This document shows, piece after piece, positions 4,205 to 50,900 of a DNA stretch of 64,000 nucleotides. Origin of the DNA: Norana najaformis. Its lineage: Eukaryota > Annelida > Clitellata > Crassiclitellata > Hormogastridae. A program made the translations under genes and the position numbers. Positions within the stretch are counted from its first letter, which is position 1, and each line of letters starts with the position of its first letter. Location: positions 671,501-735,500 of the forward strand of contig OZ029922.1 of NCBI GenBank assembly GCA_964023275.1, written 5' to 3'. The notes under the pieces are model-generated. The model was not told the DNA's origin and made no database searches. It saw only the letters and a list, made by a program, of their open reading frames with translations.

Positions 4205-4335
4205 ACACGACAAACTCCATGTCTTAAATAAAGTTGTTTCAACTACTACTGCGCCTATGAATAAGCTGGTTCTTCCGACTTGGGTTTTTCTGGGCGCTGT
4301 GGAAATCTCGAGATTATGATTACCATTACTCAACC
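4205..4335 (+). repeat. Interspersed repeat, family 2
   Basis: Short copy with ATGAATAAGCTGGTT and GGCGCTGTGGAAATCTCGAG. A weaker copy lies near 1905-2070. Confidence 0.5.
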
Positions 4336-18300: not shown

Positions 18301-18686
18301 TTAATTAAAATGTGCTATATAACATCATATATATATATACATATACAAACACGCTGCTGGATTGAAAAATATACCTTTCTCGCTTAAATTTGTAAGAAAA
18401 TTAGTACAACTTGTAACTTTTTTTATTTCGATTTTAAAGTGAAATTGAATATCGGTTCATGTACTTCAGCAAACAAGGAACGACCGAACGACCAAATAAG
18501 GCCAAGGACGAACAAAGACCAAAACAAAAGCCTAAGAAGCCTAAAGATCCCGAAGTCGTTCAGCAAACCAACAACTTCCCCGAGTATGCAGACATTATGC
18601 CCCTCGCACAACCCATCGTTAGAGAACCAACCAGGAGTCCAATCTTCTACTCTAATCCCGAATTTGTTGCAACCACACCATCGTAA
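12351..18686 (+). CDS. Two-CTLD type I membrane receptor, tyrosine-motif tail (array member A)
   Basis: Eight exons, 426 aa: 12351-12378, 13072-13365, 13939-14070, 14554-14787, 15585-15731, 16268-16369, 17901-17997, 18440-18686 (tail could instead start at 18470, 416 aa). All boundaries are GT-AG and the frame closes. Residues 1-25 form a signal peptide split over exons 1 and 2. CTLD1 is about 26-151, CTLD2 152-278, Ser/Thr stalk 279-312, TM 313-340 (glycine-rich start, poly-Val end, KKRKR stop-transfer), tail to 426. CTLD2 has the WTDCDC block and a final FVC, but KPN replaces the sugar-binding EPN and the cysteine before VKYENE is Ile; CTLD1 lacks one of the two late cysteines kept in paralogues. 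The tail is short, with YADI and IFYSNPEF and no YANA block. Inferred role: cell-surface recognition and SH2-dependent signalling; ligand unknown. Confidence 0.78.
12790..12925 (+). repeat. Interspersed repeat, GCGCC-type
   Basis: Copy in intron 1 of member A: TATATAGCGCCACTTCAAGA, then TTTTCCAGGGCTTGCGG. Confidence 0.5.
17020..17290 (+). mobile_element. 5'-truncated LINE 3' end
   Basis: Nucleotide match to the last ORF codons and 3' UTR of the intact LINE, including the GCCATTGGTTGATGC block and a TTAATAATT end. It lies in the intron before the TM exon of member A. Confidence 0.75.
17422..17695 (+). repeat. Degenerate GGTAAGG minisatellite
   Basis: Dozens of 5-8 base variants of GGTAAGG/GGTAGGG with strong G/A versus T skew, all in one orientation. 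Located in the intron just before the TM exon of member A, on the sense strand. Confidence 0.85.
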
Positions 18687-23600: not shown

Positions 23601-26600
23601 TGTTCCAAATGATAATATGTATTCTGAATTCTTTAATGTTATTGCCACATTGCGCAACAACTGGCTTTTGAGGGTTTTTGTGGGCTAGAAACTTTATACC
23701 AGGTTTTTAATAGCTCAAAACTGTACTGATCAGTATTAGGTTCAATAAAGAATAATTCCTTTTGAATTTTAATTGAAAATAGAATTTTCTGTGTACTGAC
23801 TTCAGTGTTTAAGAATTCCGGGTTATAAACTTTCTAGCAAAACTAAAAAAATGATAATCCTGGTTTTGTTTAATCCCCTTGCTTTAAGTTCAGTGATATA
23901 CTTTAAGTGACACAACCCAAAAATCAACACTTAAAGAACAATAAAAAGGTAGAGGTATAATGTATAGCAATCGTTCATGATTACACGCACCAATCAACAA
24001 TATTCCTCCAATGTGTGGTCCAAATGTTAAAGGATATCTTGCCTGAAGCCGAAATAAACCAGCCGTGGCTGTTTCAAACAGTTCTCGTTGTTTTAAAGTT
24101 TCATGTGTATAAGCTTGGTAATACCCCATCGGTACCGAAAACTTATGAATATTTTTATGTTTAGAATTGTAGTAAATTGTGCCTAGGAAATTGTGCAATT
24201 TCACTGCACTGACGCACTCCGTGCAAAGCAGGAGTGCGTCACTCGTCATCGCAAAATATGTTTGCGGCCACTGTTAATGGTTTGCAATGCATGCCACCAT
24301 CTTCCCGGTTTCGCTTTGACGAATTAACTACGAACACTCAAACACTGCACCTCTTGCAATCTCTGGGCATGTCTTTCGTTCAAAAAATAAAAATACTCTT
24401 CTTATACAAATCCTATCCTGACCTCCTCTTCCCCTTGCCTCTCTCGCCGTTCCAATTCTAAACACTATCCCATCTATCAGTGGCAGCCTGACTATCTACC
24501 TGCGTGACCCTTTGAACTTGACCTGGAACTGACCCTGACCTTATCCGACGATCAATTTTGTTTTGACTTAGCGCCTGTGATTAGGCTGGTTTCGACGACT
24601 AGGCTTTCTTTAGGCGCCGAATCTCGAGATTACGATGTATATTATGTTTCTGGATTGAAATGAAGTCACTTTATTGATCAGCAACATTTAGAACTGGCTG
24701 AAGAACTGCTAATTCTTATATAGCACCTTTCAGAACCTCACGTGGGTGCTGAAAATGGCTTTCTAACTGGTCTAATAAGGAGCGACTTAATATAGGTTGA
24801 AAATGCTTCTAAAGCTGACTATGGCGGAACTGCACGCATTTTATTGAACAACTGTTTCAGAAGGACGGTCCGTTGCACAAAAAGAACAGTGTGCCCGTGA
24901 TTCTGTGATTGCAAGACTTAGTAATCTAATAACAAAAGACAACAATCAAAAAGAAATTTACAAAAGAAAAAATAGCATTACTAAAATGTAAACAAACATC
25001 GGAACCGAGATTGAATTGGTAAATTGTCAATTGCAGGCATTTTAAAGTCAAGTCGACCAGCCGGTCAACTGAAATGACGCCGTGTGCCAAATTTGTCCCG
25101 CTGGCCAGGGTTTTTCTAGGCTTTCTGTTAAAACTATCTGGGCTCAGCAATCTTAACCTCACTGTAAATTCTAGCGCCGTATTATAAAAGCACCAAGGGG
25201 TCACTCTTGGCTCTGTTGACATATCGTGTTATATATGGAACCTCTAAAAGCCGCCGTACATCAAACCCATCCGACCCGAACCGATCCACCTGGAAATATC
25301 GAATCTGGACTGATTCGATCGGATCTGATTGGGATAGGTGTACGTTGCCAGTGTTTGTCAGTCGGCGGATCGGGGAAAATGTCTTTAGTCTGAAGACTAA
25401 TGTCTTATCGGGTGGAATCAGATCGGAATGGGTCGGTTTACGATCGGCAGCTGGTCTCTAGTTGCTGCGAATATAGCCATTTATCTGAGCCAATAACGTC
25501 TTATAAATTATTTAAGTCATATACAATATTAATAAGATGATAACATTATCATGTATTATATAATAATGACTATAGGCCTATAGATAATGCTACTTATGTA
25601 CGTATTTAATTACATATCTAATACATATCTGAGCGTCGTCCTAATCGAGCGATCGACCTGGCAATAGTAGCAGGCCGTAACGGCACTCAGACAAGCCTAC
25701 TTGTATAATGGGGTCAATCTGGTTCAGTCTGAGTCAGTCGGCCGAGTGTGTATCGCGCGCCGACCCAGCGCGTTCAGACTGAAAATTTTTGAACATGTCC
25801 AGACTGACATTGGTCGTTCCTGACTGAGTTTTTTATCATACACCGACCCAACACGATCCGATCTGATCCAAAGGAAAACATTGGATCGGGTCGGGTCGGT
25901 ATATTTATCAGTAAATAAAAATACTTCGGCAGCATTTATTCGCAATAAATCTTTAAGCAACCGATTTGCAGGTATACCGGTGGCTGATCAGTTGTTGGGT
26001 TGGAATTGATGAGTAATTTCGCTTGTAACAATATAGACGATGATATGTTAAGTTTGAAAATGAAAGTTTAACTTCATACGAATTATTTTGTTGTGCAGAA
26101 AGCGAGTGTTCCAATGATTCTACTAATAATATTCGTTATAAAGAAAGATGTTACGTCAAGTATGAAAATGAAACGTTGACTTGGTTTAAAGCCAGAGAAA
26201 GTTGCATTAGCAAAGGCGGTGATTTGGCAAGATTTAAGAACGAACGTGACGTTTGGGTTCTTCCTTTCAATACGTCCTGGTTGAACTCATCGTTGACGTA
26301 CTGGGTTGGAATTCGACGCAATGATTGGTCTTGGAAACCTCCAGGTACGCTATCTTTCAGCAGAGTTCATTCATTTGATACGAGTTTTCGCTTACGATTC
26401 TTCGCTAAGTCGATGGACAGATGCATTACTTACTTGCTTACTTTTCTTATTCTCAATTTACATCCATGTACACTTATGTACATGCATATTTATGTAAGTA
26501 TGTGTCCATATGTGTATGTGTGAATATGAATGTATGTTATGTATGTATCTATGTACGAACGAAGGTACATATGCATCCAGACATCTATTAAGCACCTTCT

Positions 26601-29600
26601 CAATGCCATATGAAACTGCTGCCAAAGCTAACCAAAGTGGTGTCAAAGTTCACTTTAAGAAGAATTTTCATCTGTAAATTCAAATCAAATCTAACAAATA
26701 ACTCCGAAGCAGACTTGTACGCAGTAAAATCTGAACATACTAGAATTATCAAGGAAATTCCGCACGTTACGAACTAATCTATTGAAATGAGTGAAAAGCA
26801 GAAATCGCAATCCAGTTTATACAAGTGGTTGCTTGGTTTTGATGATACTACGCGGACAAACGCAATGAATTCAAGCAAAATAGAGCCGAGTTAGTCACTA
26901 GATGGGCGACCGAATGATCAATTCTTTGCTGGTAAACGAGAATCAGCACAAGATGGAAATACAGCAGGTGTACTAGTCTTGGGGTGATGTGATTATGTTC
27001 CTTTATAGGAACTCCTCAGGTACACGTGTATATTATTTTATTTTTTTTATTTTTACATATATATATATATATATATACGCAAAACATCTGTTCAACAGCT
27101 ATGAAACCACTAGATTTTTCAGAGCCTCTGCACAACGCTTAAGCATCAAAGCATTATATAAGAGGCACAGTATAATTAACCAACACAATCCATGCCTTTA
27201 ATTACATAATTATAGAGGAAGTACTTCTTATCCACAGGTTTAAATAATGTAGATAATTGAGTCGTGTCGCAAAAAAGTGAATTTAATCATTGTTGTGATA
27301 CTTTTCTGTACAGACGGTGGCAATGAAACCATATACACCTCTTGGTCGGAAGGAAAACCGAATAACATTAATTACTCTTGTGTTTGTGTGGATCCGAATG
27401 GAAACCCAGTCTGGAGTTGGACAGATTGCGACTGTAATGTGCAAAGGCAATTCGTCTGTCTTAAAAGTAATCGAAATATATATTACGCTTTGTTGTATTT
27501 CATTTAAACACCCCCTCAAGTTTTGTTAACTGTGTTTTCCAACATGCTTGTATTGACTTTTCCTGTGGCCAAAATTGTATTGCAATTTAAGGATTAAAAT
27601 GTTACCTCTCTGTAAGCAAACCTTGCCGCCTTTCTTCAATCTGTCCGTGCAATGACCAACTCCAATGGCGAATGCCAGTGAAGAACATAACAGCAACGGT
27701 AAAACCATCGATTGATGCTTTGTGCACTATGACAACGGCGTTTCAGATTTGAATTGAAATAAGACAGACTATTGTGGATTTATGTTCTTTCGTTGAGTCA
27801 AAAAATTTATGGTGTAAGAGAAGCCACAGAAGTTGCAATTCTTCATCATCAAGAAGTCTATGCATATAAAGAATTTATAATAGCCGGCCCATTACAATAA
27901 AACAAACTGATGAAATATAAAGTAACATCTACCAGATTTGTCAGCTCTGTCAAAATGCATGTGCCAGACAACTTAGTAACGAACTTTCAGGCAAGCCTAT
28001 ATTAGAAAGACGCCATTCAGTTAAGTTGCAAGTGGATTAAAAAATTGTTGCTATTCGTGAAGGTCGAGAATGGAAAACCCAGCAGAGCAGATACGAAATA
28101 GACGAATAATACAGACAAATTTGAGTTCCTAAGCTGACTAAATATAAAAATAGTGACAACTTACATACAGATGCCACGAGAACTCCTCTCATACAAGGAA
28201 CTTCGTCGCTATGCAAGTAAATTCTGCGTTTATATTGATAAAATTGTCGCTGATTTTTAATTTTTCTTGTTATATCATAGTTCACTAGCATAATATAGAT
28301 TTCATTTATTGAATGTTCCTCTCTTTTTTGGACTTACTACACTAAGATTTTGGAGAGAATGTATAAATATACTGTATTAATGACTTTGTTGCAGAAGTAG
28401 ATGTACAAACGACGACATTAATGACATCAGCATCTATTACGATGGATCCAAAAACCACAACAGCGCTGACTGGGCTCACCGTGACCACTGATACTCACTC
28501 TACAGTTATAGCAGGCAGTCAAAGTAGTAAGAGTTTGAAATAAAACAATATTAACATTCCTGTAAACTAGAACGTCTCTCTGTGACCATCCATTACTTCA
28601 AAGTAAATTGCTTTCCACGGCATTTCCACCATTCCAAGCGATAACTAGCCATCCAAATAAATCAAGTCCCTCAATCATAATTTTTCATCTCACCATTGAG
28701 ACATAATCTTTTATCTTCTAAAATAAACTGGAAGAGCAGATTTAATTCCAATAATATAGAAGCCGTAATATCTAGTTACACGACAGACCTATTTGCATGG
28801 TAGGTCTGTCTCCTGAATTTAAGAAAATCTATCCGAACGAATTGGCCTAAATGGACACTTCTTTAAAATCGAATTTTATCAATTTATCAAAATACCAGGT
28901 TAGTCAATAATAATCGCTTTTGTACAATTTCTATCGCGCATTCTGAATCTTGAATAATAAAATTAATAATATTTTATGTTCAGATAGAACACTAGCCATT
29001 GGCTTGGGAGTTGGCATCGGAGGAGGTGGTCTTATCATTCTCATCATTATCGTCGTTGTCTTGGTAGTCGTGATCAGAAGAAGAAAAAGGTATCAGAAGT
29101 ATCGCATATATCTATTTCAAACTTATTTATAAACTTTTAGGTAGGTATTTTATGTACTCTTATATGTCGACTACCACCTGACTAGACTCAGATTCACATG
29201 TAGTTACGTTAACGATCACGTTAGATTTATATTTTGTTTGGCTTTGTTCAACTTATAAATTATTTAAATAATAATGATACCCGAATAAGAACTACTTGAA
29301 ACATTATTAACTCAATTTTTAAACAGCCTAGCCTATTAAATACGGGTGACGATCTTCATGTAGAACATTTAAAACTTATGCGCAATATGTACTGTAGTGT
29401 AACGTAACGTATTACATCATTTATATATCATGTTGTAAGGTAACGCTTCAGACCAAAGACATATGTGGGACCTCAGGTAACCTCAGACCATCATAAAATT
29501 ACGATAAGACTTTAATTAATTAGTTGCAGCATAATGACCTAAGATGGATTTGACTGCGCATCATAAATTAGCTGGGCTAATGATAGTGCGACTATTAGGT

Positions 29601-30676
29601 GATCTATTAGAATAGCGCGTTAGATTTGCGATCGAAAGGTTGCAGGTTCAAGGCTATTGAGCGAACTCCGTATAGCTACCCTGGGCAAGACATTTGCTCG
29701 CACGTGCCTCTATCATCAGGCAGTACAATTTGGTACCGGCATAAACCGGAAAGTAAGCGGTAAATATGGCTATGCACTGGCCCGGTGTCCAGCACTTTGA
29801 GATTCGTCTTTTGCAGGCTGAAGGGCAGAAAAGCGGAAAATGAACTTCCCCTACGTTCCGCATAGGACGTGGAAGTTCTTTTTTTGCTTTAGGTTAACAA
29901 CAGGAATAATCTTTTAATGAATTTGATATAACTTTCCAAAAGTGGTGTAGGGTCAACATTGCATCGAAAAAGCCGCAGTAACCATTTGCCTGTCTACTTG
30001 CCTGACCTCCGTATTTCTACTTGGAACCAACCTGACCATAGCTGCATCATCGATTTTGTAAAGTTTTTATTGAGCGCCTGTGAATAAGCTGGTTCCTGAG
30101 ATTTAGCTTTTATGGGCGCTGAGGACTTCCGGAGTTTACGATTATGATCAAATTTCAATTCTGGTACATTGTGTAGTTAGGGCGGTTTAGCGTTCAAATT
30201 TTATGTTTATTCCTCCTTAATCCTATTTACTCATTATAATTTCAACAATTTGGAGTCTTAGCGTTAATTCTTTTAGAAAACGCAGTAGCGGTGGCAGTGA
30301 ATCTAGGGCTGAAATGGAAAGCAACGACGAAGACGAGGTCAAGACGCAACGTCCTAAAGCGGCACAATCGCCTGGAAGGAATGGTTTAGCTATGGTAAAT
30401 AAACCACCACGGAATCCTGTAAACAACGAAGTTTATGCCGCAGTTGTTCCTAATGGTAAGCATCCAGCAAAGAAGACTGAACCAGAAATCGTTTATACAG
30501 TTCCAGAATTTATTGAGGATCCGCAATCAACGCCTCCTTACTCCAACTACGAAGTGGCCACTCGTGTTAAGGAATCTGGTCTGATTCCTACACTGCGAGA
30601 AAATTCTCAGTCTCTATTCCCGCAAGACTTGGGTGATTTATATGCAAATGCAAAGGAATCTTCAAACTACAACTGA
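20644..30676 (+). CDS. Two-CTLD type I membrane receptor with ITIM-like tail (array member B)
   Basis: Eight exons, 491 aa: 20644-20677, 21197-21472, 23355-23483, 26099-26344, 27314-27466, 28395-28526, 28984-29089, 30277-30676. Summed length is an exact multiple of three. Signal peptide 1-22 ends VSS; CTLD1 23-146 carries many N-glycosylation sequons and a final NYIC; CTLD2 147-279 has VKYENETLTWF, YWVGIR, GKPNN and WTDCDC; Thr-rich stalk 280-323; TM about 326-352 beginning LAIGLGVGIGGG and ending in RRRKR; tail 359-491. Tail tyrosines sit in VYAAV (Y412), IVYTVPEF (Y432), SNYEVA (Y450) and DLYANA (Y481). YxxV resembles ITIM cores, YxxP and YxN resemble Crk-type and Grb2-type SH2 ligands. The CTLD2 sugar site is KPN, not EPN. 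The exon 3 donor (GTGATT) is weak. Function is inferred from layout. Confidence 0.82.
20755..20763 (-). promoter_or_regulatory. ETS-like site in intron 1 (member B)
   Basis: ACTTCCTGG, i.e. CCAGGAAGT on minus, 78 bases after the exon 1 end. Equivalent sites: 32248-32256, 35099-35107, 40791-40799 and 48019-48027, all 60-88 bases after exon 1. Confidence 0.4.
22090..22500 (+). mobile_element. LINE 3' fragment of a second family
   Basis: A plus frame reads MRMPRWILGVSLKDRKR, VREARLRWYGHVERAE and then RWRNIIQQDPN, the conserved C-terminal end of many non-LTR reverse transcriptase ORFs (clade not resolved). It lies in intron 2 of member B; the rest of the element is absent. Confidence 0.75.
22600..23100 (+). 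mobile_element. Decayed reverse-transcriptase fragment
   Basis: Broken plus frames show NQSGYRKPHSIE, then NAVFNTVDHHVL, matching FQSAYRKFHSTE and AAFDTVDHSLL of the intact LINE. Many stops and shifts. It adjoins the fragment at 22090-22500 but belongs to a different LINE portion. Confidence 0.6.
24420..24640 (+). repeat. Interspersed repeat (LINE-like 3' UTR, family 2)
   Basis: Shares a CTCGCCGTTCCAATTC block, a GACTTAGCGCCTGTGA block and an AATCTCGAGATTACGA end with copies near 1905-2070, 4205-4335, 8125-8345, 29985-30150 and 43330-43535, all plus strand. The uniform 3' end and ragged 5' ends suggest LINE retrotransposition; no ORF remains. Confidence 0.6.
25245..25915. mobile_element. Possible non-autonomous DNA transposon (MITE)
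   Basis: The left end carries CCGACCCGAACCGATCCA and GATCGGATC; the right end carries the reverse complement of CCGACCCGACCCGATCCA and GATCGGATC. Inverted similarity covers roughly 60 bp per end around a non-coding core. Located in an intron of member B. Confidence 0.45.
27055..27076. repeat. AT microsatellite
   Basis: Pure TA run. Others lie at 38376-38399 and near 44121-44135. CATA/TATG-rich tetranucleotide tracts occur at 48720-48910, 59697-59765 and 63750-63810; GAAT repeats at 23125-23148; TAAG repeats at 16107-16130 and 32735-32750; CTAT/CCAT at 5612-5640 and 49700-49735. Confidence 0.9.
29590..29785 (+). mobile_element. tRNA-derived SINE, second family
   Basis: A GCGCGTTAGATTTGCGATCG stretch and GCAGGTTCAAGGC (B box) are followed by CCTGGGCAAGACATTTGC, a body motif common in invertebrate SINEs. 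Located in the last intron of member B. Confidence 0.6.
29985..30150 (+). repeat. Interspersed repeat, family 2
   Basis: Copy with GAGCGCCTGTGAATAAGCTG and a GGGCGCTGAGG end, in the last intron of member B. Confidence 0.6.
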
Positions 30677-32154: not shown

Positions 32155-33985
32155 ATGATCAAGATTCTGATATCGCGAGCTGTTTTAGGGAAGTGAAATG
32201 ATATACCACCTGTTATTTGTTTCTTTGCAAATGAACAAATATAAGTAACTTCCTGGTTTTGGTTAAGGTATATGTAACCTAAACACGATTGCACTCATCT
32301 CTCAATAAACATTGCCTGATTTTAATCATCACTTAAGTGTAGACCAACTTATTTTCTTAAAGCTTCAACAGCTGAAAGGCTAGTATTCTCATTTAATGTC
32401 TTCTATGGCGACGTCATCGTACTTAGGCATCAATCGATATTCCTTTCAACAAAAGCTATAGTCAAAACGTAATCTGACGAAAAACTGTGGTCGAAACTCA
32501 ATAGGTCAGGGAAACCAGAGAAATCAATGGTCAGGCTACGGTGGGCAAGTTAAAACAGATGATTCTGAAGTTTAGACCTGAATGGCATTAAGAACTAACA
32601 GAACGCACAGAACTGGTAAATGAATCCCAAAGCTTTGTACCAACCACCGAGAATGCATGGGTCCAGTTGCTGTCTGGATGTCAGGCACAACAAGAGTCAA
32701 CGTATCTGTTAATCTAGTATTAGTATTATTAAGTAAGTAAGTAAGTAGGTATATTCTTTATTAACCAATAGCTAATCGCACATCGGTTTACAAGTATTTA
32801 AGAACACAAGAAAACTTAATATTCATACAACATCCTAACAATAAAACATTTACGCGTTAAATTGTCAGTAGGAGGAATAATACGATCATGGGTGTGGGGC
32901 CGTAGGAAATAACTGAGGGTTTTAATGGTGGGAGATGCCTATTTACATCTGACCCTTTAGGCTGTGTTTATGATGCAATAGCGGCGGAGCAACTAGTACA
33001 TAATTGTCTGACGTGGGATATTTTGTTTAGTGACGATTATCGGAATCCCACGGGTGTCTTCAGATCTTGAACCCTACAATGGTAAATTATACTTTACAAC
33101 ACCTGGACCCAGTGTGGTGGAAATTTTTGATAGTGGAATGTCTTGGTGCTCAGCGAATTCTTCTCAATTGGCTGTTCATAGAAACACTTATGCTCAAATG
33201 GCTTTGACTCAATTTCTGACCTCCTCACATCTTGATTCGATAATGTACATCAATTTAAACCTCATTCAGCATTACAGCACTTGGGTTCAAGTTGGTGGAC
33301 AAAAGTATAACGGTATGTTTGATTTTTTATGTAGTTCTCATTCTAAATGCATTACAGAATAAAATATAATCTTGCGTATTTAATTCATTAACAAATAAAG
33401 CATTTGTCTTCGTATGAGCAATGCTATAGTTAGATATTTTGCTTTTCAGAGAAAGTCAATTTTTTGTGTTAGGCCTTACTAGTTGGTAAAAATCATTCAG
33501 ATAAAAGTCGAATGTGGTTACTTGGAATTTGCAGAGACAACATTTACCGAATAATACCATTAACTAGTTTTACTATTTTTATTGTCACTTGCAGCTAGAT
33601 AAATCTAAGGTTTCTAATCTAATCCGTTGCCTTGGCGTCTAAAAAATCAAGATCTTTTAAATTATAAAAATGGGACACCTTTTTCGAATACTCCTTACAG
33701 AATCTGTTGCATCATAAAAATTAGATTAAATAGTTCGAAGACTTTCATCGTGGTTGTAAAAGAGTATGTTAGCATTTGCCAAGTTTACCTCTGATATACA
33801 TTAAGAGAATATTAGTTCATCTTAATTGCATTTTATTTTCGTTGAAAAAAAATGTTTTAGGTGAACTAGGAAATCAAAATAAATAGTGATTACAGGCTAT
33901 GATTCCAGGCATTACAATCCAAACGCTTTTATCATGGAAGGTTCAAGAACGGATGACCTCAGAAACTACTGATGCGACTTTGAAT
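32155..33985 (+). pseudogene. Degenerate CTLD1 receptor gene (array member C)
   Basis: A signal exon (32155-32188) and CTLD1 first-half exon (33031-33312, 94 intact codons ending in a GTATGT donor) align with members B and E. The second-half exon is 33861-33985. The copy is broken: the exon 1 donor reads GG where paralogues have GT, the third exon is 125 nt where B has 129, and it contains stops, including one replacing Ile of the conserved RNYIC. No CTLD2 exons follow before the next unit. The first-half exon is well preserved, so decay is probably recent or the exon is still used. Alternative: a short secreted product reading on into intron 2. Confidence 0.7.
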
Positions 33986-34144: not shown

Positions 34145-37100
34145 GTTTGATGTCTGCGGCCACATCTGTCATGTTCTCCTAAATCTGTCATTTAGTAGTT
34201 CCTTCGCCTTGTGAAAAATTCGCCAGATCCTCCTTCGTTTTCCCCCGATCGATCGGTATGCTGCACCATTTTGACCCATCAGTCATAAGCGCATGACAAC
34301 ACCTTGGGGTAAACAGTTGAACCTTTGACCTATAGACCTGTGTGCCTTCATCAACTGGGAAAATCTGGGATTTGGTGAAAGTATAACGAGGAGTCTTCGG
34401 CATGGCGTTGCCCCTCAACCACGCAGAGTTTCTGCGGCCAATCGAACCTCTATTCTGCGCAGACCTGCGGTCTCAAGGAACGTCCACATGCTGGATCATC
34501 TACCAACTGTGTGATACATTTTGATGGTGAGGCAACCCTGGGCGGGTGACTACGCTGCCTGCCGTTCCTCATCCTTAGTGCTTCGCGGCCCAGGAACTCT
34601 CAACATGGTGTCGATTATCAACTCTGGCTGGGAAGCCATTGGTTCGGCAACATCTAATCTGATGATGACTCCTTTAGTATCGATAGCTTGAAGTAAAACG
34701 TACCCAAAATCGTGATACGTGAAGGTCCAGTCGAAATTATATGAATATGTTACATATGTATATAACTTCTGTTCGTCACAGTTCAGTAACTTGACTCAGT
34801 CAGCGAATGTCTTAAAAACAACGTATCAGAGCTACCGCTGCTTATTGTTGCATGCCCTACTTTCTTTTCGTATAGTCTATCATGTTCTGTGTAGTATGAT
34901 AGGTTTAGGTAGGGTTAGCCTAGATATTTTAAAGTATAAGTTGTTTAATTCGTGAATTATTATACTAATGTAAGAAAATGTTGAAGATTTTTACGCTCAC
35001 AGCTCTTTTCGGTCAGCAGGTTTATTTTACAACCGATATTCTTTTTTCTTCTATATGAGAGGCAGTAAATAGAGCCTACATGACTGAAAGAATTTGTAAC
35101 TTCCTGATTTTGAAGGCGGTACTTAAAACGAATGCTGTCCTTAATCAATATTGCCTTAGCTGGTTGTTATAATAGCTGTGAACGACTACTTCATCTTAAA
35201 GAAGGGGAGATAAGTGAAAGCCTATTCATCGACAATGGTATTCAAGCATTAGCATCTATATCGGTGTAAGTGTAAGATACCTAGCTGAATTCGACTGAGC
35301 AGGCGATACCGATAGTGCACAAAAACATTACAATTCATCAAAACGACTGCTGCTAAAAGTAATTTCCATAAAGAGAAATCACTTCCATTGTCAATATGGC
35401 CATAAACAAACAATTAATGTCTGCTAAAATAGTACACTTCATGAACTGTAATGTGGCCGCTTATAATAACCAGACGCCTGTTAATAAATGTTCACTGGAC
35501 CAGTTAAATAACACGAAATCATTGATTGTAGTACCCTAAACATGTCGATTGCAGCGCCTTCATGAGCTTTGAAATGTTATAAGATAAAGGGTCAGGGTCT
35601 TGCACATTAGAACACATCGAGCGTCATATTTTACTGCACCCTTTGCTTAAACTCATCATTAGTATCAGTCAAAGTATAGCAAGTCTCTAGGAAAAATAGA
35701 AGATGTTGTGATTTAGCTTCTGTTATGTTTTTCGGTGATATGAATCCACTGGTAGAAGATTTAGTTTCAAATGCTCTGAAATATTAGGACCTATCTATGA
35801 ATTTGCCTTTACGTAGTTGAAAGACAAAAAGCTATAAATTACTATAAAGATTTGTTTGCTAAAACAGTTGTTTTAGATACAACTGCGGTAACTCCTACTA
35901 CGATCACAGCATCCACCCCGACATCCAGCTCTACTATTGTGAGTTCAGCTTCGACGACAACGTCAACGACTACTTCTTCGACTACATCGACGACGACAAC
36001 ATCAACGCCTAATATTTCACCTATATCGAGGACGACAATATCAACGCCTACTACTACGACTACAGCGACAACGACAGCATCAAAACCTACTAATGAAACG
36101 ACTAACACAACAACAACAGAAACACAATCGAACGGTACTTCCTATTGACTTTCTTGCAATTTTCAACTAAACTGGTGAACTCAACGATTAACGGAATATT
36201 CTACCAAAATGCTACTAAGGTTAATTAAAGCAGGTCAGTAATAATCACGTAAACTAAAAACAAATAGCTTTAATGATACGAATATTTCATTTTATCGTAC
36301 TAACGTAATCGTAATCGTAAACTCGAAATGTCTAAACCTGTACTTAAAAGCCACTCGTAGGGCACCAGTTTATTCATGAGCGCTGCGTAAAGTCAGTGGG
36401 GTTGTCCCAAAGATGCCGTGTCAAGAACCAAGTCCGGTTGCCAGAAGACCAGAGAGAGGAGGGGGAGAGGAGTTGTTAGGGTGGCTTGTGTTTATGTATC
36501 CAACAGTTTCTGTACAAAGGAGAAGCTGTCAGAACAATGACTACCCGTTTGAAGTAAAAGACACAAATAATCGTAATCGTAAACTCAAAATTTCTCAGCC
36601 GCTACTCAAGAGCAAAGCGCTGTTTATTCACGATATCTAGGTCAAGTAATTGAGATTGTCCAGAGATACCGTGTGAAGAACAAGATCCAGTTACTGGGAT
36701 ATCAAAAGAGGGAGAGAGACAGAGGAGCGGTTAAGATGGGGTTGTGCATAGGTGAAGGCGGCAGACTGAATGGACAGGGATAAGATTTCATGAATAAAAT
36801 AAATTCAATTTGAATAAAAATCTGGATGAGTGTAATTCGCAATAGTTTATAATTTCCCTATTTAAGGCTCACCGTATTCGATTTATGTATTAATCAGCAC
36901 TAACCTTTTTGCAGTATTAGCCATTGGTTTGGGTGTTGGCATCGGCGGAGGTGTGTTTTTCATACTTCTCGTTGTAATTGTTGTCGCTACAGTCATCACA
37001 ATAAGAAAAAGGTATATTTGTCGCGATATTTTAACAGTAGCACAGTAAATGCTTTGAATTTTTAGCTAAATGAATATATTTACAATCATATATAGTTTCA

Positions 37101-37420: not shown

Positions 37421-38643
37421 ATGTTAGAATTAGCAGGAACGGGCTTGTCCAAGTTTTAAGATAAAATCAAATGCAGTTGGGTCGCAAGTTCAGTAGGCGT
37501 CTCGGTTGTGCGAGACCACAGAGGAGGCAATGATATTAGCTTTGAATGTTAAACTGTTGAGCTTTTCCAATGATGGTAACTGATGAAGGAGCAAATAATT
37601 CATAGTGTTTGGTGGAAAGAAAACTTAGCAGTAACGGAAGTATGATCAGAGAAATATGAATTAGCAGGAAAGATACTCGTAGCTGCGGAACAACTGGACC
37701 GGGTTATTAGGGGCTCAAGTGTATGCCTCTTGCTATAAGTTGGGTAGTTAAGTCATGTTGGTATAGTATATGTAATTAAAGATCATTAATTATCGGTTGC
37801 TCGTTTGCTAGCGTAAAGGACGTTATAGTCCTTAAAAGATCGATCTGTTTACAAACGCTCTTTAATTACTACACTGTGAACGAAAGACGAACCCAAAATT
37901 ATTGTTACATGACTTTTCTAAATTTTTTAATTTTAAATAAAACTAGAACTCTTCCAATTGTGACTATAACAGCAACTAAATTTACAATTATAAACAGTCG
38001 CTGTTTAAAAACCAGGACAGTTACATTGTTAATTGTGCAATGATCGAATAAAATTTTTGTATACTGAATTAAACTTGAACAATAATTTTCATTAGTTTAT
38101 AGAATTGCACTAGGCGTTCGTTTTACCGTTCATAGTGTACATTGCTTGTATAAACTGTCATAATACTTTAAGCATTGTCTCTATCTCCACAGAATGAAGC
38201 ATGAGTCTGAAAAAAATATCAGTCAGCTACTATGTACTCATATTATTCTATAAAATATGTAATACGTAATTAACTGTTGTTATAACATGTAATTAACTGT
38301 TGTTACATTCCTCAGTTTGTTTGTATAGGCTGCCTGATTACATAAAAGCCACACATTTTATTAACATTGCTGTGATATATATATATATATATATATATTA
38401 GCCACTTTTTATTCGTATTTGCTTTGCAGAGGCAAACGTCGCAGAAAGGAAAGCGCGAGTCATTTAGCGAGAACAACGTCTGTCCAGCAGGACAAAAGTG
38501 CAACGGAATTGGGGGCTGCAGTTCCAGATCCTCACTATCAGCATCTTCAAAGAGACCCTAGACCAGTCAATGCGATGCCGCTCTACGATCAACTCAACCA
38601 CACTGAAACTGGAGAATACGAATTCATTACCGAAAGACCGTAG
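34978..38643 (+). CDS. Mucin-like membrane receptor with canonical ITAM
   Basis: Four exons, 203 aa: 34978-35011 (signal exon), 35868-36134 (89-codon Thr/Ser/Pro stalk), 36915-37011 (TM), 38430-38643 (tail). Phases 1-1-2 and exact closure match the CTLD members; no CTLD exon lies between signal exon and stalk. The stalk is rich in STT and TTTT runs, so dense O-glycosylation is expected. TM begins LAIGLGVGIGGG and ends TIRKR. The tail is unlike the other members: after basic residues it has YQHL (Y169), then PLYDQL and EYEFI (Y185, Y196) with seven residues between Leu and the second Tyr, meeting the ITAM rule YxxL-x6-8-YxxI. Known ITAMs bind tandem-SH2 Syk/ZAP-70-family kinases after Src-family phosphorylation. 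Caveat: the exon 1 donor is GTCAGC, where the sister copy has GTAAGC. Confidence 0.72.
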
Positions 38644-39097
38644 AAACAATACTCTATCTCTGTCTATGTCTCTCAGTCTCTCTGTTATTACCATTTAAAA
38701 ATAGCTCACCATATTTTTCATTTCGCTCGAAGTTTTATGATTGAGTCAAAGAAGTATGAAGTAGCCTGGTGTTCGACACTGTTAGTACATAACGTGACCG
38801 AATCAGAAATGACTTATCTTTTAAAATGTCTTAATAATTGTTAAATATCCGCCCTATTAACGTGCCTTAATATATTAAATTTCATTTTTGATCGCAGCTA
38901 TTTGGGCTTACGATACGTGAGGTCGAATTAATTTGGTTAAAAGATACTTTACAAAATGAATTGACAAACGGTATCTAGGATATAAATAAATGCATATGAT
39001 ATCATTGCATCGTGTGATGTTATTGCAATACGATACAACTCTCCCTCAAGATATCTACTTATAGGCTATAAACTACGATAAACTTCAGAGTCCTTTA

Positions 39098-39292
39098 GTA
39101 GAGAAGTTTATGCTGCGATAGTTTCCGAAGAGCAAGGTCAAGAAAACTACAGCAGATCACCAAAGACACCCTTTACTAAACTCCGGAATCCCACAAAATT
39201 CGAAATCAAAGTCTTCTCATTCTATTCACGAAGTGGCCACTCTTGCTAACGAAAGCCAGACAAAGCAAATGGAAAAGCAGGAACCAAAATAA
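39098..39292 (+). pseudogene. Relic ITIM-like tail exon downstream of the ITAM exon
   Basis: Reading all three plus frames recovers, in order, EVYAAIV, LY-stop-TPES and HEVATLANES. These match EVYAAVV, VYTVPEF and YEVATRVKES of the member B tail, and the middle block also matches IIYSTPEF of the sister gene. Two frame changes and a stop inside the YxTPE block show it no longer codes as one exon. It lies where the ancestral last exon of this unit would be expected, 450 bp after the ITAM stop. Confidence 0.65.
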
Positions 39293-39904: not shown

Positions 39905-42900
39905 AGCTTGATGTCTGCGGTCAAATTGGACAGTGAACCTTTGATCTACTGACCTGTGGGCTTTCATCAACTGGGGAAATCTAGGTTTTTGGTGAAAGGA
40001 ACGCGCGAAGAGTCCTTGGCGTGGCCTTGCCCCTCAACCTCTGAGAGCTTCTGCGGCCAATCGAACTCCTATCCTTCGCAGGCCAACCGGCTCCCGAGAC
40101 GTAATGGCACGTATTGAAACATAATGGCCCGTTGCACCTGCTACCGACAGTGAGGGAATGCTGAAAGGTGAGGCAAACTTGTGCCCTGGGCGGTGGACCG
40201 CAACGCCTGTCGCTCCTCATTCTTGATGCAACGCGGTCCAGGAACTCTGAACATGATGTAAAATATCAACTCTGGATGGGAAGCCATTGGTTCGGCAATA
40301 TCTAATCTGATGACTCCTTTAGTACCGATTGCATAAAGCACAAGGCACCAACCGATGGTTGTTTGAAGTAAAACCACACTCAAAATCGTGATACGCATAA
40401 GTCCAGTAGAAATGCGATTGGTCAGGAAAATATGTAAGAGAGTATGTTATTTATGCATATAACTCTCGTTCGTCACAGTTCAGCCACTTGACTCAAGTCA
40501 GCCAATGACCGTCTTAATAACAAAATAACAACTACCGCTGCCTATTGTTGCATGCCCTACTTTCTTTTCATATTGCTGATCATGTTCTGTGTAGTGTGAT
40601 AGGTTTTTCATGTTGCCCTAGGTATTTTAAAAACTAAGTTGTTTAATTCATTAATTATTATACTGATGTAAGAAAATGTTGAGGCTTTTGACGTTTTCAG
40701 CTCTTTTCGGTAAGCGAGTTTATGTTATAACGGGTATTCTTTTTACCTATATACGAGTAGCAATGTATTCATGACTACAAGAATATAATTACTTCCTGAT
40801 CAACAGTAGCTGAAATGAATCTTGTCCTTAATCAGTTTTGCCTTAGCTTGTTGCTATAATAGCTGTGAACGACTACTCTTCAACTTTAAGCAGAAGTAAG
40901 TGAAAGTATATTCAACGTTATATCAGTCTTGTTATATAAGTATTAGCATCAGTATCGGTATCAGTATCAATAAAGGTATAGATGTAAGATACCTAGCTAC
41001 ACCCAACTCAGTAGGCGGTATTGATAGGCCAGACAAGAGCACATAGGCACTATTACTCATCAATACAGCCGCTGTCAAGTGTAATTTCTTCAAGCAAATA
41101 CACTGATGTTAAAAATGTGGCCATAGACAAATAATGTTTGCTATTATGCCACAATCAGTCTATGCATGAACTGCAATCTGGCCGTTTATAATAACTAGAT
41201 GCCTATTATGAAACGTTCACTGAGACAGTTAAATAATACGAGCTCGTTGATTAGAGCCAAAACTTTGTCTATTGCAGCGAAATCATGAGGTTTGGAATGT
41301 TATACGGTAAGGGCCTTGGACATTATAGGAAACATTAAGCGTCATATTTCAGTGCATTCTAAGAACTGTTCGTAAACTTGTAATAAGTCCAAGATAAAGT
41401 ATGGCAAGTCTGTTGGAAAATTGAAAGGTGTTGAGTTTTAGCCTTTGTGATATTCTTCGGTGATATGAATATATTGGCAAAACGATTGTTTCAATTATTC
41501 TGAAATATTAGGGTTTATCTATGAATTTGCCTTTACATAGTTGAAAGAAAAAAAGCTTTAAATTGTTATAAAGATTTTCTTGCTAAAACAGGTGTTCTAA
41601 CTACAACTGCGGCCATTACAATTACGGCCATAACAATCATCACAGCACCAACGCCTACTGATGCGACGTCGCCCAACACAATGACGACGGAACTATCATC
41701 AACAGGTATTTCCACATTAACTTCCTTGCAAGTGTCAAATAAACTGGTGAACTTATCGATTGACGGTAACATTCTACCAAACATTAGCATGTTAATTATT
41801 TAGCAAAACGATTCAATTTCAATTGTTCTGAAATATTAAGGCCTATTTATGAATTAATGAATAAGTAAGGTTAGTGAAATTAGGTCACATAAATTAAATT
41901 TTACATTCAATTTTCCTGTGTATCCAACAGTTTTGGTAAAAAGAGAAACTCTCAGAACGATGACCAACCCTTTGAAGCATAAGACGCCAAAGTAACGACC
42001 ATAATTGTAAGCTCAAAATTTCTAAACTGCTATTCACAAGCAAAGCTCAGTTTATTCATGATATCTGCCTCAAATAATTAAGGCATCGTGTGAAATACAA
42101 GATCCAGCTACCTTTGATCAAAAAGGGAGGGACACGAATGAGCGGTTAAGGTGGAGTTGTACCAAGTATATAGGTTGACAGAAATGGGAAGGCGGGCCTA
42201 TTAAATGAAACAGGGTAAGATTTCCTGTAACTTGACACCGAGGCAGAGTTTCAGACGCCTATTATCCAATGTTCACTGGGCCAGTGAGATTATAATACGA
42301 CCTCGTTGATTAGACTTAAATTTTCGTCGATTATAGCGCCATTATAGGGCTGAAATATTATAAGATAAAGTCTAGGCAACATTGAGCGTCATATGTAAGT
42401 GCATTGTGAGATCTTTGCTTAAACTCATCATTAGTCCCAGTTAAAATATGACAAATCTGTTTGCAAAATAAAAAATGTCGACATTTAGCTTCTTTGATAT
42501 TGTTCGGTGATACCCATTGGTAAAAAGATTCAGTTTGAAATGCTCTGAAATATTCGGTCCCCTCTATGAATTTGCCTTTACGTAGTTGAAAGACAAAAAG
42601 CTATGAATTACTATAAAGATTTGTTTGCTAAAACAGCTGTTTTAGATACAACTGCGGTAACTCCTACTACAATCACAGCATCCACCCCGACATCCAGCTC
42701 TACTATTGTGAGTTCAGCTTCGACGACAACGTCAACGACTACTTCTTCGACTACATCGACGACGACAACATCAACGCCTAATATTTCACCAATATCGAGG
42801 ACGACAATATCAACGCCTAATAGTTCACCTACATCGAGGACGACAATATCAACGCCTACTACTACGACTACAGCGACAACGACAGCATCAAACTCTACTA

Positions 42901-44415
42901 ATGAAACGAGTAACACAACAACAACGGAAACACAATCGAAGGGTACTTCCTATTGACTTTCTTGCAATTAAACTGATGAACTCAACTATTAACGCTATAT
43001 TCTACCAAAAATGATATTAAGGTTAATTACAATAGGTAAGTAATAATCACATAAATTAAAAACAAATAGATTTAATGATGCGCATATTCCATTCAATTGT
43101 ATCGTTTCGGTACGACAGAGAAGCTGTCAGAACGATGACTAACCGTTTGAAGGAAAAATCGCCAAAACAATAATCGCAATCGTAAACTTAAATTTCTAAA
43201 CCGCTACTCAACAGCAAATCTCAGTTCATTCACGATATTTGCGTCGTCATTATTTGCACCCTGTGTCTCAATCTCGTAGCAGCGCGAGTTTGACTCTCCA
43301 GAGGTACGGTGTGAAGAACAATATCCACTTACTTCCTCTTATCTCTCTTCCTGCTTCAATCCCAAACACCACCCACCGTAGCTGTCACGCTGTCTCTCTG
43401 TCTGACTTTTGGATCTTGACCTCGAACCGAACCCTTTTTGCCTGTCGATTTGTTTTGACTGAGCGCCTGTGAATAATTTGGTCCCTGTGATGTGGCTCTC
43501 GTTGGGCGCTGTAGAAATCTCGGGATTACGATTACGAGATGAAATAGGGAGAGACACACAGAGGACTGGTTACGGCGGGGTTGTTAATAGGTTGGCCGAA
43601 ATGAGGCGGCGGCGTCGGAGTGAATGAATCAGGGTTAGATTTTACAATAAAAGATTACACTTAATTTTAATGGAGTGCAATTTGCAATCGTATATTATTT
43701 CTCTATTATAGTATAACCATATACGATTTATGTATCTCTGAACACTAATCTTTTTGCAGTATTAGCCATTGGTTTGGGTGTTGGCATCGGAGGAGGTGTG
43801 TTTGTCATACTTCTCGTTGTAATTGTTGTCGCTACAGTCAACACAATAAGAAAAAGGTATATTTGTCGCGATACTTTTAACAGTGCCAGAGTAAATTCTT
43901 TAAACTTTTATTTTAATCAATATATTTACAGTCATGTACAGTTTTAGACGAGCATTCATCATAGTCAATCATACAATCAATCATACAACAAAGGTTGTTC
44001 AAATTAAGGCGAACCTTCCACAAAATTGTACAAAGCAAATACTCAAACCTTTGAGTATACGACTACATATATAAAGAATTCTTTAAATGAATAGACATTA
44101 ATGTTAACTAGCCAATGTACATATATATATATATATTATATTTGCATATCAACACAAACATGAATACAAAGGAATTTGGCTCTTCTGCAATACGCATTAT
44201 TTCTTAAATATCTAGCCTATTTATCGCGTCAATTAGGAGCCTCCATGGAAAAAGCCTTCAATCGTCTATCTTAACTCCCAGACTGCTCTAACAAACAACG
44301 ACTGTTCTATCAGTTCTACCTACCTTGCCTGCCTGTTACTAGTCTGCAGTGCACCACAACCCATTTTTACTTATAAGTCTCTTAGGTAAGGGTTCCAAAA
44401 TAACATTTTATGCAA
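39905..44415 (+). repeat. Tandem segmental duplication, unit 2
   Basis: Second copy of 34145-37420. It contains an internal duplication (about 41190-41960 and 42240-43150), giving two stalk exons. The second stalk exon is much closer to the unit 1 exon than to its neighbour. Confidence 0.8.
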
Positions 44416-45559
44416 TCTAAAAAGAATAAATTATATTGTTCTGTATTAGTTACATATTTTTCATAGGCATATAAGCTAGGTTATATAATTTTTAAAATAG
44501 CATTTTGCACTTTTGTCAAACCTCATGCAAAATGTATGGACCTAAACAGAGCATCGTCAGAAAATTTGGAACAGACCACGCATTAGCAAAATACTGAATG
44601 CATTAGAAATAATGTGTGACACGATACCCAATTTGTTTAGCGCTGGCCAGGTATCGTGGAGTGTGGAGATTCAAGCCTCTTCGCTACAGACGGTTACTGT
44701 GTAGGGTCCTCCATGCACAATTGCTCAGCGCCATCGACTGATGTTTAGTCATAAGTCAGTCCTGCTTAATAAATACAGAAATAATAATTGTGACATAATA
44801 TAAAATTAACTTAAGTCTCAACACTCACCTTTATCAATTGGCTTATCCGCCGCAGGCTGCCTCTCTGCTTCAGTGGAGAACTTTTCTGGATATTAACTGA
44901 CTGCGGCTTGAAATCAGTGCGCCATCGGGTTGGTGCCTTGTGCATTAGACCCCGGCGCTATAGAAGTTGCTAATTATTAATAATAATAAAATGATGCGAC
45001 CCTACACTACATTTGCTATATTACATTTGGCCTACGTAACGTTACAAACTATGCTACAGTAGGCACTCAGAGGTACATAAAGTTTACGTAACCTTAAAGT
45101 AGACCATAAGGCCTTTTAATGCTCAAAACTACTTTCCTTTTCTTCTTATTTTCTTTGACGTAATACAATTTCCTTTCAGATGTAATCACAAATATGTATT
45201 ATGTTCATGCTTCTAGGAAAAGCAAAGGCAGCGGTGGCAGTGCAACCAGAAATAAGTTGAAGAAGAAAAGCGCAGATAAGAAAAACAAGAACCAACGCAT
45301 CGATGCTTTAGAGTCAGACTATGCTTCGGTAGTTTCAACATTACAGCCTCAGCAAAATAGAAACAATACGCCAGGAAGCATCATATATTCAACTCCAGAA
45401 TTCAGTCAGAATTCAGCATCAATGCCTTCAAATTCTGGCTACGAAATGGCCGAACGTGTTAGGGAAAACAATGGAGTTCATACATTGATTGGAAAAAACA
45501 AACCCTATATCCCAAAACGTTCCAATGACATCTACGCAAATGCTGGGGAAGCATTTTAG
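40676..45559 (+). CDS. Mucin-like membrane receptor with ITIM-like tail
   Basis: Five exons, 297 aa: 40676-40709 (signal), 41592-41705 (38-codon stalk exon), 42637-42942 (102-codon stalk exon), 43760-43856 (TM), 45217-45559 (tail). All stalk junctions are phase 1, so the 38-codon exon can be skipped in frame (259 aa). The long stalk exon nearly repeats that of the ITAM gene plus one extra 13-residue unit. The TM exon differs from the ITAM gene mainly by Ile-to-Asn near its cytoplasmic end. The tail has SDYASV (Y219), a full [ILVS]xYxx[LIV] ITIM, then IIYSTPEF (Y241), SGYEMA (Y259) and DIYANA (Y290), collinear with B and E. Polyadenylation-like AATAAA motifs lie within 160 bp of the stop. Likely the inhibitory or adaptor-binding partner of the ITAM copy. 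Confidence 0.76.
43330..43535 (+). repeat. Interspersed repeat, family 2
   Basis: Copy with GACTGAGCGCCTGTGAATAA and a GGGCGCTGTAGAAATCTCG end, in the stalk-to-TM intron of the mucin-like ITIM gene. It is absent from the equivalent intron of the ITAM gene, so it inserted after the tandem duplication. Confidence 0.6.
44640..44775 (+). mobile_element. tRNA-derived SINE
   Basis: Plus-strand copy of the same family: GATTCAAGCC B-box-like site, then CAATTGCTCAGCGCCATCGA. It sits just upstream of a LINE 3' end in the same intron. Confidence 0.5.
44815..44995 (+). mobile_element. 5'-truncated LINE 3' end
   Basis: Begins at the TTGGCTTATCCGCCG region (end of the LINE ORF), carries the same 3' UTR and ends in TAATAATAATAA. 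It lies in the TM-to-tail intron of the mucin-like ITIM gene. Confidence 0.75.
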
Positions 45560-47910: not shown

Positions 47911-50900
47911 ATGATGAACGTTTGGATGTCAATAACTCTTTTTGGTAAGCTATACATAATATATTTTCAAATTTTAATTTCTTTGGGGTGCAATTGCATA
48001 AGCCATATGACTCAAGATACTTCCTGGTTGTGAGGGATCACTTAGATGCATTAGGACAGACAGCAGTTAGCTGAAGATTGTGCTAGTTAGACCATAATCT
48101 AAGCCGTTGCCAGCTACATTTATGGCCTACTGATATAAATAACATCACACGTTTGATATGAAAATACTATGTGGGCTTGGGGCGAATTAAGCAGCTGTGA
48201 CGTATGCTACGTGCAGCTGCAAAGCTTGTTGGCGTTACAATGTAGTTTCAAATTTAGTCATTTTCTGATGTACTTCGTTGGCCGTCCTTCTAACCGTCCA
48301 GTTTTGTTAAGATTTCTGTGTGAGTCTAGTGGTGCCAGCTGAGTGGATGCATCTGCCTACTTACATGAGTTTTGAGCCTTAGGTCAACGACCTGGATGAA
48401 TTGGTTGTTCCCTTTAAATGTCCTTCGACAGTTTACCTTCGGGCCTTCCCTACTGCTTATATACAGTTGTGCCGCTTTCTGACTGGAACACTCCTTACAC
48501 CGTTTCTAAGTACATATACTGAAAAGGTGTTATATATGATTTTAAATGAACGAAACAAAGAAGTAAAAGCTCTATACATATTTTTTCTTTCAAAATACCA
48601 ACTACGAAATCACAAGTCATTCTGTCCTTCATAAATTGTGTTCATATAAAGCTCACAAGTACCACGACATTGATGCTGTTCTGTACTTCATAGGCACTAA
48701 AATAATTAAACCTACAAATGCATACACATGCACAGAATCACACACATAAATTCTTATGCATAACATACATGCATACACAAATTCTTTACTGTACATGCAT
48801 ACAATTTCAAGCATATACATATACATCTATACATACATTCATAAATACGTACACAAATACATACATACATGCACACAAATTTTTAATACAAACACAAATA
48901 CATGCATACATGTATAACCATTTGAAATTATGCTCATATGCCTACCCACGTAATGCCATGAAAATAGTTGAATTGTGTAACTGACTCTTTCGTTATGTTC
49001 GAAATAATCCTAGAACAAGATATGTGCTTTTTATAGTGAAATTACCAAACATACATACACTTTAAAATGCATTAGACAGAATGTTACAACTAAAATTAAA
49101 TATTCATAATAATATGGGTTGCTTGTGCTTTACTTTTATTTGACTTTGCAATGTTTAGCGATAACCTTCTTTGGACCAGTGTCTTCGTATTTTGAAAATT
49201 GTATCGGTGAAAGATGTTTTACAATATCTGGATCCAATGAGACAAAGAATTTCAATGATTCAAAGAATTGGTGTAAAGAAAGAACCTCTAGTTTAGCTGT
49301 TGTTAATGATGACGCTACTCGGGAAGACTTAATTCGATTTTTGAATTCTGTGCAACTGAACGAACAACCGAAACCATCGATGTTCATAGATTTGCAACTC
49401 AAAAAGACGGGTAATACATGGAATCTTTTCAATGGAACTCCCTATCTGGGTAAGACTGATTTTATAGTAAAATTATGGTAGACTCGTGTCTTATTAGTGT
49501 ACATTATTAATCTACAGAAACAGGAAAAATTCTTTGTAGTGACCCTTCTTTGGTCCTGTAAAACATTCTATAATTAGAAGAATAATATATAACAAGTTTC
49601 TTGGTTTATATCTGTCTAAATTTAATTACAACATACCTAAATTAGGTGAAATGGCACCAATAAACATACACATGAACGGGTGATTCACTTGGGCACCGCC
49701 ATCTATCTATCTGTCTATCTATCCATCTATCCATCGTCCAGAAAAGCTCATTACAATAAGAAACAAAGAAATCAGTTTTGTTATCTGCGAAAGGAGAAAC
49801 TATATCAAACACGGGTAGTAAGATACAACATTACATTTCGCAGAAAATGAGTTGAAACTCCACCAAAATGCATAGCAACTTAATCAAAGTCGGTTAACCG
49901 TTTTGGTCTTTTATCAAAAATGTCATGTAATGGATTTTACACAGCGCATTCTAATCCAAGGAATTACATATGAAGCAATTTATTTTACACAAGGAAGCCA
50001 GCTATTATTCATACATAAATTCATTTATACCCAAGAATCACAACAATGAAAAAATTGTGGGACGACTAGAAATAATCAAGAATTGGGGGAGTTGAGGGTC
50101 TCCAGCGTCATACTTTGCACATAAAGGTATACAGTGAACACCGTGGTTAACAGATTACTTGTGCTACCACCCCGTGTCGATTATACCCCATATGAATACA
50201 TTGCTTACGTAATTATATATTTCAACCTTGTCAGTCGCTAGGATAATGCAATAAAAATTTAAAGATCGTTAGAAAGATCTCACATAACAAATTTAAGTCA
50301 GTTTGATTGCAATACAGCAATTGTGATCTGCTACAATTTTTTTTGCAAATCTGATGCTTTCAGGAGGACTCGGGATACAAAACGAAGCCCAATACTTATG
50401 TTACGGTTGCGTGCAGTATCGTTCGTCTAAATATAACGTGGACGGTTCTAAACCAAACAGCCACAGGAACTTTATCTGTGAATATGAAGGTGTGTGCAAT
50501 TTTAAAAATTATTTAACATTTTCTGAAAAATATGTTTTACCACTTTGGAGCTCTTTTAACCCGAAATAGAAATTATTTCTCAGGGTTCGAAAAATTTCCG
50601 AAGAATAAAATCCAGTAAGACAACGATGGTGACGTGACAGTATGTTTCGAAGACGTAGGCAGTCAACGGGCAATAGTTTTCACGGTTCATAACGGCACTA
50701 CAGTCCAACGCAGTCTCCTGTAGGTGGCAGAAGACGCGGTATCAGGATATAACCACCATATCGATCTTTAAAGGACACCGTTGGAGTGATGCTATAAAAA
50801 CTATTTATGGTAGACGGTCGATACCATTTTAAGCCTCTTCTTGACTTTCAACGGCATAGGTAGGTCTGTAGGTGCTAGCCGCGATCGTCCATATGGAACC

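Follow-up and report, generated by a model that had tools for sequence, protein, structure and literature searches.

A candidate ITAM-type receptor tail in a cluster of two-lectin-domain genes of the annelid Norana najaformis

Exons of the window copy and its tandem partner

The window analysed here, a 64-kb stretch of DNA, corresponds to C10:671501-735500 in the searched genome of 608 Mb and 17 contigs. It contains two tandem duplicates, unit A (34.3-37.4 kb) and unit B (39.9-44.4 kb), and between them an exon whose + strand encodes YDQLNHTETGEYEFI at 38584-38628, in a frame that remains open to 38643. The exons at 34978-35011, 35868-36134, 36915-37011 and 38430-38643 have GT-AG ends and join in phase into a product of 203 aa, hereafter the window copy. 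Both this product, with the tail exon in phase with the TM exon, and a YxxL-x7-YxxI motif preceded by YQHL had been proposed in an earlier sequence-only reading; phases and splice ends agree with the former, and translation reproduces the latter at the positions below. The motif lies behind the phase-2 junction to the TM exon and after basic residues, and is predicted to be cytoplasmic.

34978-35011, + strand: initial (signal-peptide) exon of unit A, MLKIFTLTALF, donor gtcagc
35868-36134, + strand: Thr/Ser-rich stalk exon of unit A, phase 1-1, conserved relative to unit B
36915-37011, + strand: TM exon of unit A, non-ITAM type (LAIGLGVGIGGG...), from comparison with unit B and of TM types
38430-38643, + strand: ITAM-type cytoplasmic tail exon including the stop codon, from phase, homologues and dN/dS
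38536-38547, + strand: upstream tyrosine motif YQHL, its spacing to YDQL unfit for an ITAM pair
38584-38628, + strand: ITAM core YDQL-x7-YEFI, from translation and motif scan
39088-39280 (approximate), + strand: relic of a non-ITAM-type tail, degenerate, frame broken, E 0.18
40676-40709, + strand: initial exon of unit B, MLRLLTFSALF, donor gtaagc
41592-41705, + strand: stalk exon 1 of unit B
42637-42942, + strand: stalk exon 2 of unit B
43760-43856, + strand: TM exon of unit B
45217-45559, + strand: tail exon of unit B, non-ITAM type (SDYASV, IIYSTPEF, DIYANA)

The stalk and TM exons of the two units are 97% identical, as against 88% and 82% for their flanks (p = 1.8e-5 and 1.7e-4); these identities skip gap columns, of which the stalk has 39. 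The signal exon showed no such extra conservation between the units (82% versus 80% for its flanks, not significant). Of the signal exon, stalk and TM that the sequence-only reading had put together, stalk and TM are supported by conservation, and the signal exon, no more conserved than its flanks, draws its support from look-alike initial exons elsewhere (see below). Within the relic, positions 39198-39253 match the tail of gene 2 at the DNA level (E 7.7e-4).

The nearest upstream lectin exons, at 33.0-34.0 kb, are those of gene 3:

33012-33312, + strand: first lectin exon (CTLD1a) of gene 3, open to a likely donor, without a Pfam match of its own
33922-33984, + strand: remnant of CTLD1b of gene 3, with an in-frame stop

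No match to a CTLD2 was found for gene 3, and together with the stop in CTLD1b this rules it out as an intact lectin receptor. Unit A itself yielded neither a Lectin_C domain nor any working lectin domain. As its sequence stands, the window copy carries a non-ITAM-type TM exon, now placed ahead of an ITAM tail exon, and no working lectin domain. A search for a hidden ITAM-type TM exon at 37.0-38.46 kb returned chance-level matches alone, the best of them (E 0.07) on the opposite strand.

Tail homologues and motif conservation

A single genome search with the window tail gave eight candidates, all of which were scored; there were five matches, the tail itself and four others, all inside one gene cluster. 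The four paralogous tails lie on the minus strand at C10:739.9-772.7 kb, 30-63 kb away and beyond the window's end:

C10:739.9 kb, - strand: ITAM-type tail of gene A (genome tail search)
C10:753.8 kb, - strand: ITAM-type tail of gene C (genome tail search)
C10:761.0 kb, - strand: ITAM-type tail of gene D (genome tail search)
C10:772.5 kb, - strand: ITAM-type tail of gene F (genome tail search)

An AG acceptor in the identical phase precedes all four. HYQHL...MPLYDQL...YE is kept in A, C and F; gene D has YQRL and has lost the first ITAM Tyr. Two database proteins carry related tails: P0001 (source lgn), a 445-aa frame with two CTLDs, TM and tail on a 1573-b contig, and P0002 (source jgi), a 213-aa frame running from CTLD2 through the tail on a 1791-b contig. 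Both look spliced, since their frames run on across positions where the genes of the cluster have exon junctions. When the window tail was searched against a protein database, none of the seven candidates reached E<=1; P0002 lay within the limits of this search and was nevertheless missed, showing that it is insensitive, and P0001 was too long for those limits. P0002 likewise pairs a TM of the non-ITAM type with an ITAM-type tail, and the combination seen in the window copy is therefore not unique. This agrees, as does the conservation of the tail exon, with the earlier proposal of an ITAM-core tail on an invertebrate single-pass receptor.

The ITAM core YxxL/I-x6-8-YxxL/I is present in five of the seven tails (window, A, C, F and P0002) and absent from gene D (RHQL) and P0001 (YELP), while the seven-residue spacing is constant in all seven. 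The strict form of the motif has D/E three residues ahead of the first Tyr (PMC2832619). Such a residue occurs in 0 of 7 tails, so we use the term ITAM core and do not class these tails as strict ITAMs; in this one respect the "textbook ITAM" originally described departs from the textbook. When six tails were aligned (all except P0002), nine of ten invariant columns fell in the ITAM half. For this half, dN/dS, a rough pairwise estimate throughout, was 0.21 for window-A, 0.23 for both window-F and window-C, and 0.14 for window-D (dS 2.67, saturated); it was 0.50 for A-F and A-C, 0.51 for A-D and 0.87 for F-D and C-D. The F-C pair has two changes in the ITAM half, neither a replacement. Whole-tail values for the ten pairs ranged from 0.18 to 0.97; the window-A value, 0.45, speaks against the preferred reading given below. 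As sequence estimates, the ITAM-half values would agree with a motif under constraint in the intact members and under weaker constraint in D.

The lectin receptor cluster and its two tail types

Exon sets for two lectin domains were found in window genes 1, 2 and 4 and in minus-strand genes A, B, C, E and F. The sequence-only reading had missed this cluster together with its second tail type, the relic tail, the broken lectin exon and the paralogues. The window genes are:

13008-18686 (start approximate), + strand: gene 1, two-CTLD receptor, non-ITAM tail at 18470-18686
21197-30676 (initial exon unplaced), + strand: gene 2, two-CTLD receptor, non-ITAM tail at 30277-30676
49113-59475 (start approximate), + strand: gene 4, two-CTLD receptor, non-ITAM tail at 59157-59475, with a LINE inside it

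The LINE in gene 4 occupies window positions 52818-56138 (RVT_1, E 1.9e-35) and contains GDVEINPGP, which we take to be a 2A-like stretch.

Pfam Lectin_C exceeded its cut-off in P0001 and in the models of genes 2 and C, with two stretches in each, and fell below it in the partial P0002. Among six single CTLD frames scanned, one passed the cut-off (minus-strand 2408-2752), three gave weaker matches, and those at 33012 and 13008 had no Pfam match. Ig families were absent at E<=0.01 from all four proteins scanned. Against the PDB, P0001 matched 14 sequences, all lectin-type, the best being the macrophage mannose receptor (E 1.5e-8). A further lectin receptor lies on the minus strand at window positions 2408-7840 (Lectin_C E 1.5e-4); a stretch near 7840-7760 looks like a TM, and its tail frame at 6577-7248 contains the strict ITIM IVYAAL. 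Minus-strand lectin-like matches go on at C10:647-667 kb.

The tails fall into two types, an ITAM type in the window copy (unit A) and genes A, C, D and F, and a non-ITAM type in genes 1, 2 and 4, unit B and genes B and E. YxxP and YxN occur in all six non-ITAM tails and YAxV in five. A strict ITIM is found in one of these six (unit B, SDYASV) and in four of the seven ITAM-type tails, as VHYQHL (C and F), LNYQRL (P0001) and LDYDFI (P0002), where it falls on the upstream YQHL/YQRL Tyr (C, F, P0001) or on the last Tyr (P0002). With this distribution neither "activating" nor "inhibitory" is a settled label, which lowers our confidence, and for the same reason we do not class these genes as classical activating/inhibitory pairs.

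Initial exons similar to that of unit A, of the form MFK[IT][FL]T[IL]T..., stand 812-1293 b ahead of the first lectin exon in four of the five minus-strand genes examined, namely B, C, E and F; gene A showed none. These first exons sort by type, reading MFKIFT[IL]TIVF in B and E and MFKTLTLTAFF in C and F, which supports the signal exon of the earlier reading. An exon finder requiring GT donors detected no open CTLD1b in B, C or F and a doubtful form in E; alignment to E showed the exon to be open in all four. CTLD1b seems to have a GC donor in C, E and F. In gene B neither GT nor GC is found at that place (C10:749.85-750.15 kb), and on this account gene B may be impaired.

We then compared the lectin domains. 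A tree of nine rows, from which gene D and the window copy were excluded as having too little lectin sequence, joined A (ITAM) with gene 2 (93/96) and P0001 (ITAM) with gene 4 (82/86). A single clade (99/98) unites B, C, E and F, two of each tail kind, without a resolved inner order; genes 1, 4 and P0001 have long branches, making their placement less certain. By amino acid identity of the lectin domains C is closest to B (88%) and F to E (89%), and A and gene 2, on opposite strands, share 77%. The nearest lectin-domain relative of each of the four testable ITAM receptors is therefore a non-ITAM one (4/4). The ITAM label needs four changes on the tree, a count that was as low in all 500 label shuffles, and a single ITAM clade was rejected (delta lnL 94.6, p-AU 1.8e-39).

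Identity along the B, C, E and F genes depends on the segment. The upstream 500 b, first exon and first intron are 90-100% identical within type (B-E, C-F) and 62-79% between types. The same holds for the intron ahead of the TM exon (81-91% versus 44-46%), for TM, next intron and tail together (84-95% versus 42-51%), for the tail exons alone (90-92% versus 47-48%) and for the 300 b downstream (63 and 90% versus 47-53%). Lectin exons 1a, 2a and 2b, by contrast with the tails, are 86-98% identical in all six pairs. Intron 1a-2a is intermediate (82-86% within type, 67-76% between), and intron 2a-2b is 79-97% identical in all pairs. In the neighbours B and C, intron 2a-2b plus exon 2b reach 97-98%. 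The genes thus have much alike ligand-binding domains on members with differing tails, as paired receptors do. We read them as paired receptors whose lectin exons would be kept similar by gene conversion centred there. Constraint alone could also make the lectin exons alike, and the similarity of the B-C intron favours exchange over constraint.

Candidate paired receptors and rival explanations

Our preferred reading, to which we give a probability of about two in three, is that the exon encodes the ITAM-type tail in a receptor family with two CTLDs, a Thr/Ser stalk and one TM, which comes in paired types and exchanges lectin exons. The two types differ in first exons, TM exons and tails, and would hold their lectin exons in common through exchange among neighbouring genes. 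With the predicted type I topology, clustering by ligand would let Src kinases phosphorylate YDQL and YExI, and these would serve as docking sites for the tandem SH2 pair of the animal's putative Syk. The non-ITAM tail (YAxV, YxxP, YxN) would turn the same ligand into another signal, which might oppose the first.

We searched the genome with a SYK tandem-SH2 fragment and obtained 14 matches, several of which, including the best (C1:22.32 Mb), resemble other SH2 genes. N- and C-SH2 pieces in colinear order were matched at C7:1.22, C1:32.5 and C14:22.7 Mb, with stops in one piece at each, and an N-SH2 alone lies at C7:1.240 Mb. The N-SH2 at C7:1.224 Mb, in two exons, matched SYK at E 6.7e-44, ZAP-70 at 3e-35 and ABL at 3.6e-13; the C-SH2 piece at C7:1.2226 Mb is a genome-search match, and sequence was read there for the N-SH2 alone. 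Judged by these matches, the genome encodes a Syk-type SH2 domain. By eye, we take the tandem SH2 genes on C9 and C14 to be PI3K p85 and those on C6 and C10 to be SHP-like. Several close SH2 pairs are present at C10:11.58-11.98 Mb, and the one inspected looks SHP-like by eye. Invertebrate Syk/Zap70 homologues are described only alongside CARD-CC/Bcl10, annelids and molluscs are among the lineages with a Bcl10-dependent paracaspase, and ancient upstream ITAM receptors are postulated, with none named in the excerpts of that source (PMC5978004). The cluster is a concrete candidate for such receptors upstream of invertebrate Syk and makes that idea testable.

It is scarcely credible that the motif arose by chance in a spurious frame. 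Among six-frame ORFs of at least 20 aa across the window, the expression YxxL/I-x6-8-YxxL/I matched 33 times, 15 of the matches coming from one minus-strand stretch, against a mean of 10.1 in 30 first-order simulations, and the pattern alone is therefore no evidence. The ITAM reading becomes credible because paralogues and database proteins keep the motif's frame and spacing, the paralogues its splice phase as well. Another explanation takes the three YxxPhi motifs as endocytic sorting or other adaptor sites, with the ITAM spacing incidental and Syk unused. All three tyrosines of the window tail do fit YxxPhi, and the missing acidic residue, the loss of the core in D and P0001 and the ITIM pattern in four of seven tails point the same way; we consider it unlikely given the spacing held in 7/7 tails, the concentration of invariant columns in the ITAM half and the Syk-type N-SH2.

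Two alternatives concern the window copy itself. It may be decaying or silent, the tail family being real and the 203-aa product not made; this we regard as a tangible though not a favoured possibility. The stop in CTLD1b, the missing CTLD2 match, the relic second tail, the weaker donor gtcagc and a signal exon no more conserved than its flanks all suggest decay, while the near-identity of stalk and TM exons amid diverged DNA, the ITAM-half dN/dS of 0.21 against A and the same TM-tail combination in P0002 argue against it. Perhaps silent, the copy may alternatively act as a mucin-like receptor or be disappearing. It is rather improbable that a single gene uses units A and B as alternative stalk-TM-tail cassettes, with splicing swapping the tails: the units share strand, phases and almost identical stalk and TM exons, and splicing-based motif switching is described for Botryllus FcoR (PMC12065747), but each unit has its own initial exon, and the types on the minus strand are separate genes.

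Returning to the preferred reading of paired lectin receptors, the cluster can be set beside several known systems. The ectodomains of CEACAMs are of Ig type and those of Hydractinia Alr Ig-like, whereas the cluster's are lectin. The vertebrate Ly49, NKG2/CD94 and Dectin-type lectin receptors form gene clusters too; they are type II, with one CTLD and hemITAM or partner adaptors, unlike the cluster receptors with two CTLDs, a signal exon first and their own ITAM core. Like the cluster receptors, Ly49 and CD94/NKG2 have C-type lectin-like domains; they come in activating and inhibitory versions (PMC3533184). In CEACAM1/CEACAM3 and the opossum ITAM CEACAMs, similarly, some members carry an ITAM or ITAM-like tail themselves and others have different tails, and there too tail exons were replaced and ligand-binding exons kept alike by gene conversion (PMC2832619). 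CEACAM partner tails carry ITIM/ITSM, unlike five of the six non-ITAM tails here, which have no strict ITIM.

Among invertebrates, Botryllus FcoR and Hydractinia Alr are families with ITAM-type and ITIM motifs, hemITAM/ITIM in FcoR and the motifs also in Hydractinia candidate genes, and the FcoR ectodomain has Ig and sushi domains, unlike the four Ig-free proteins here (PMC12065747). The oyster CgIgIT2 is, like the window receptor, lophotrochozoan with its own ITAM; it differs in having five Ig domains, and excerpts of its description mention no paired partner (PMC11999971). The rarity outside vertebrates that the sequence-only reading had claimed was, in view of these reports, overstated. Paired ITAM lectin receptors in annelids were absent from the matches listed in the open-licence literature, as was the pairing pattern in protostomes in the excerpts seen there. 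The motif is known, and the receptor family is new.

A set of two matched versions, one with an ITAM-type ending, is most familiar in the immune cells of vertebrates. On balance we favour the view that a protostome independently evolved true paired receptors, with gene-converted lectin exons, two tyrosine-tail types and private promoters, TMs and tails; they would feed the annelid Syk, and tail exchange, of which the window copy is an example, would give rise to new members. If true, the paired-receptor design arose again on lectin receptors.

Elsewhere in the genome, contig C15 carries sequences of annelid appearance, nuclear fragments of mitochondrial COX1 with stops beside frames that by eye are ND2- and COX2-like.
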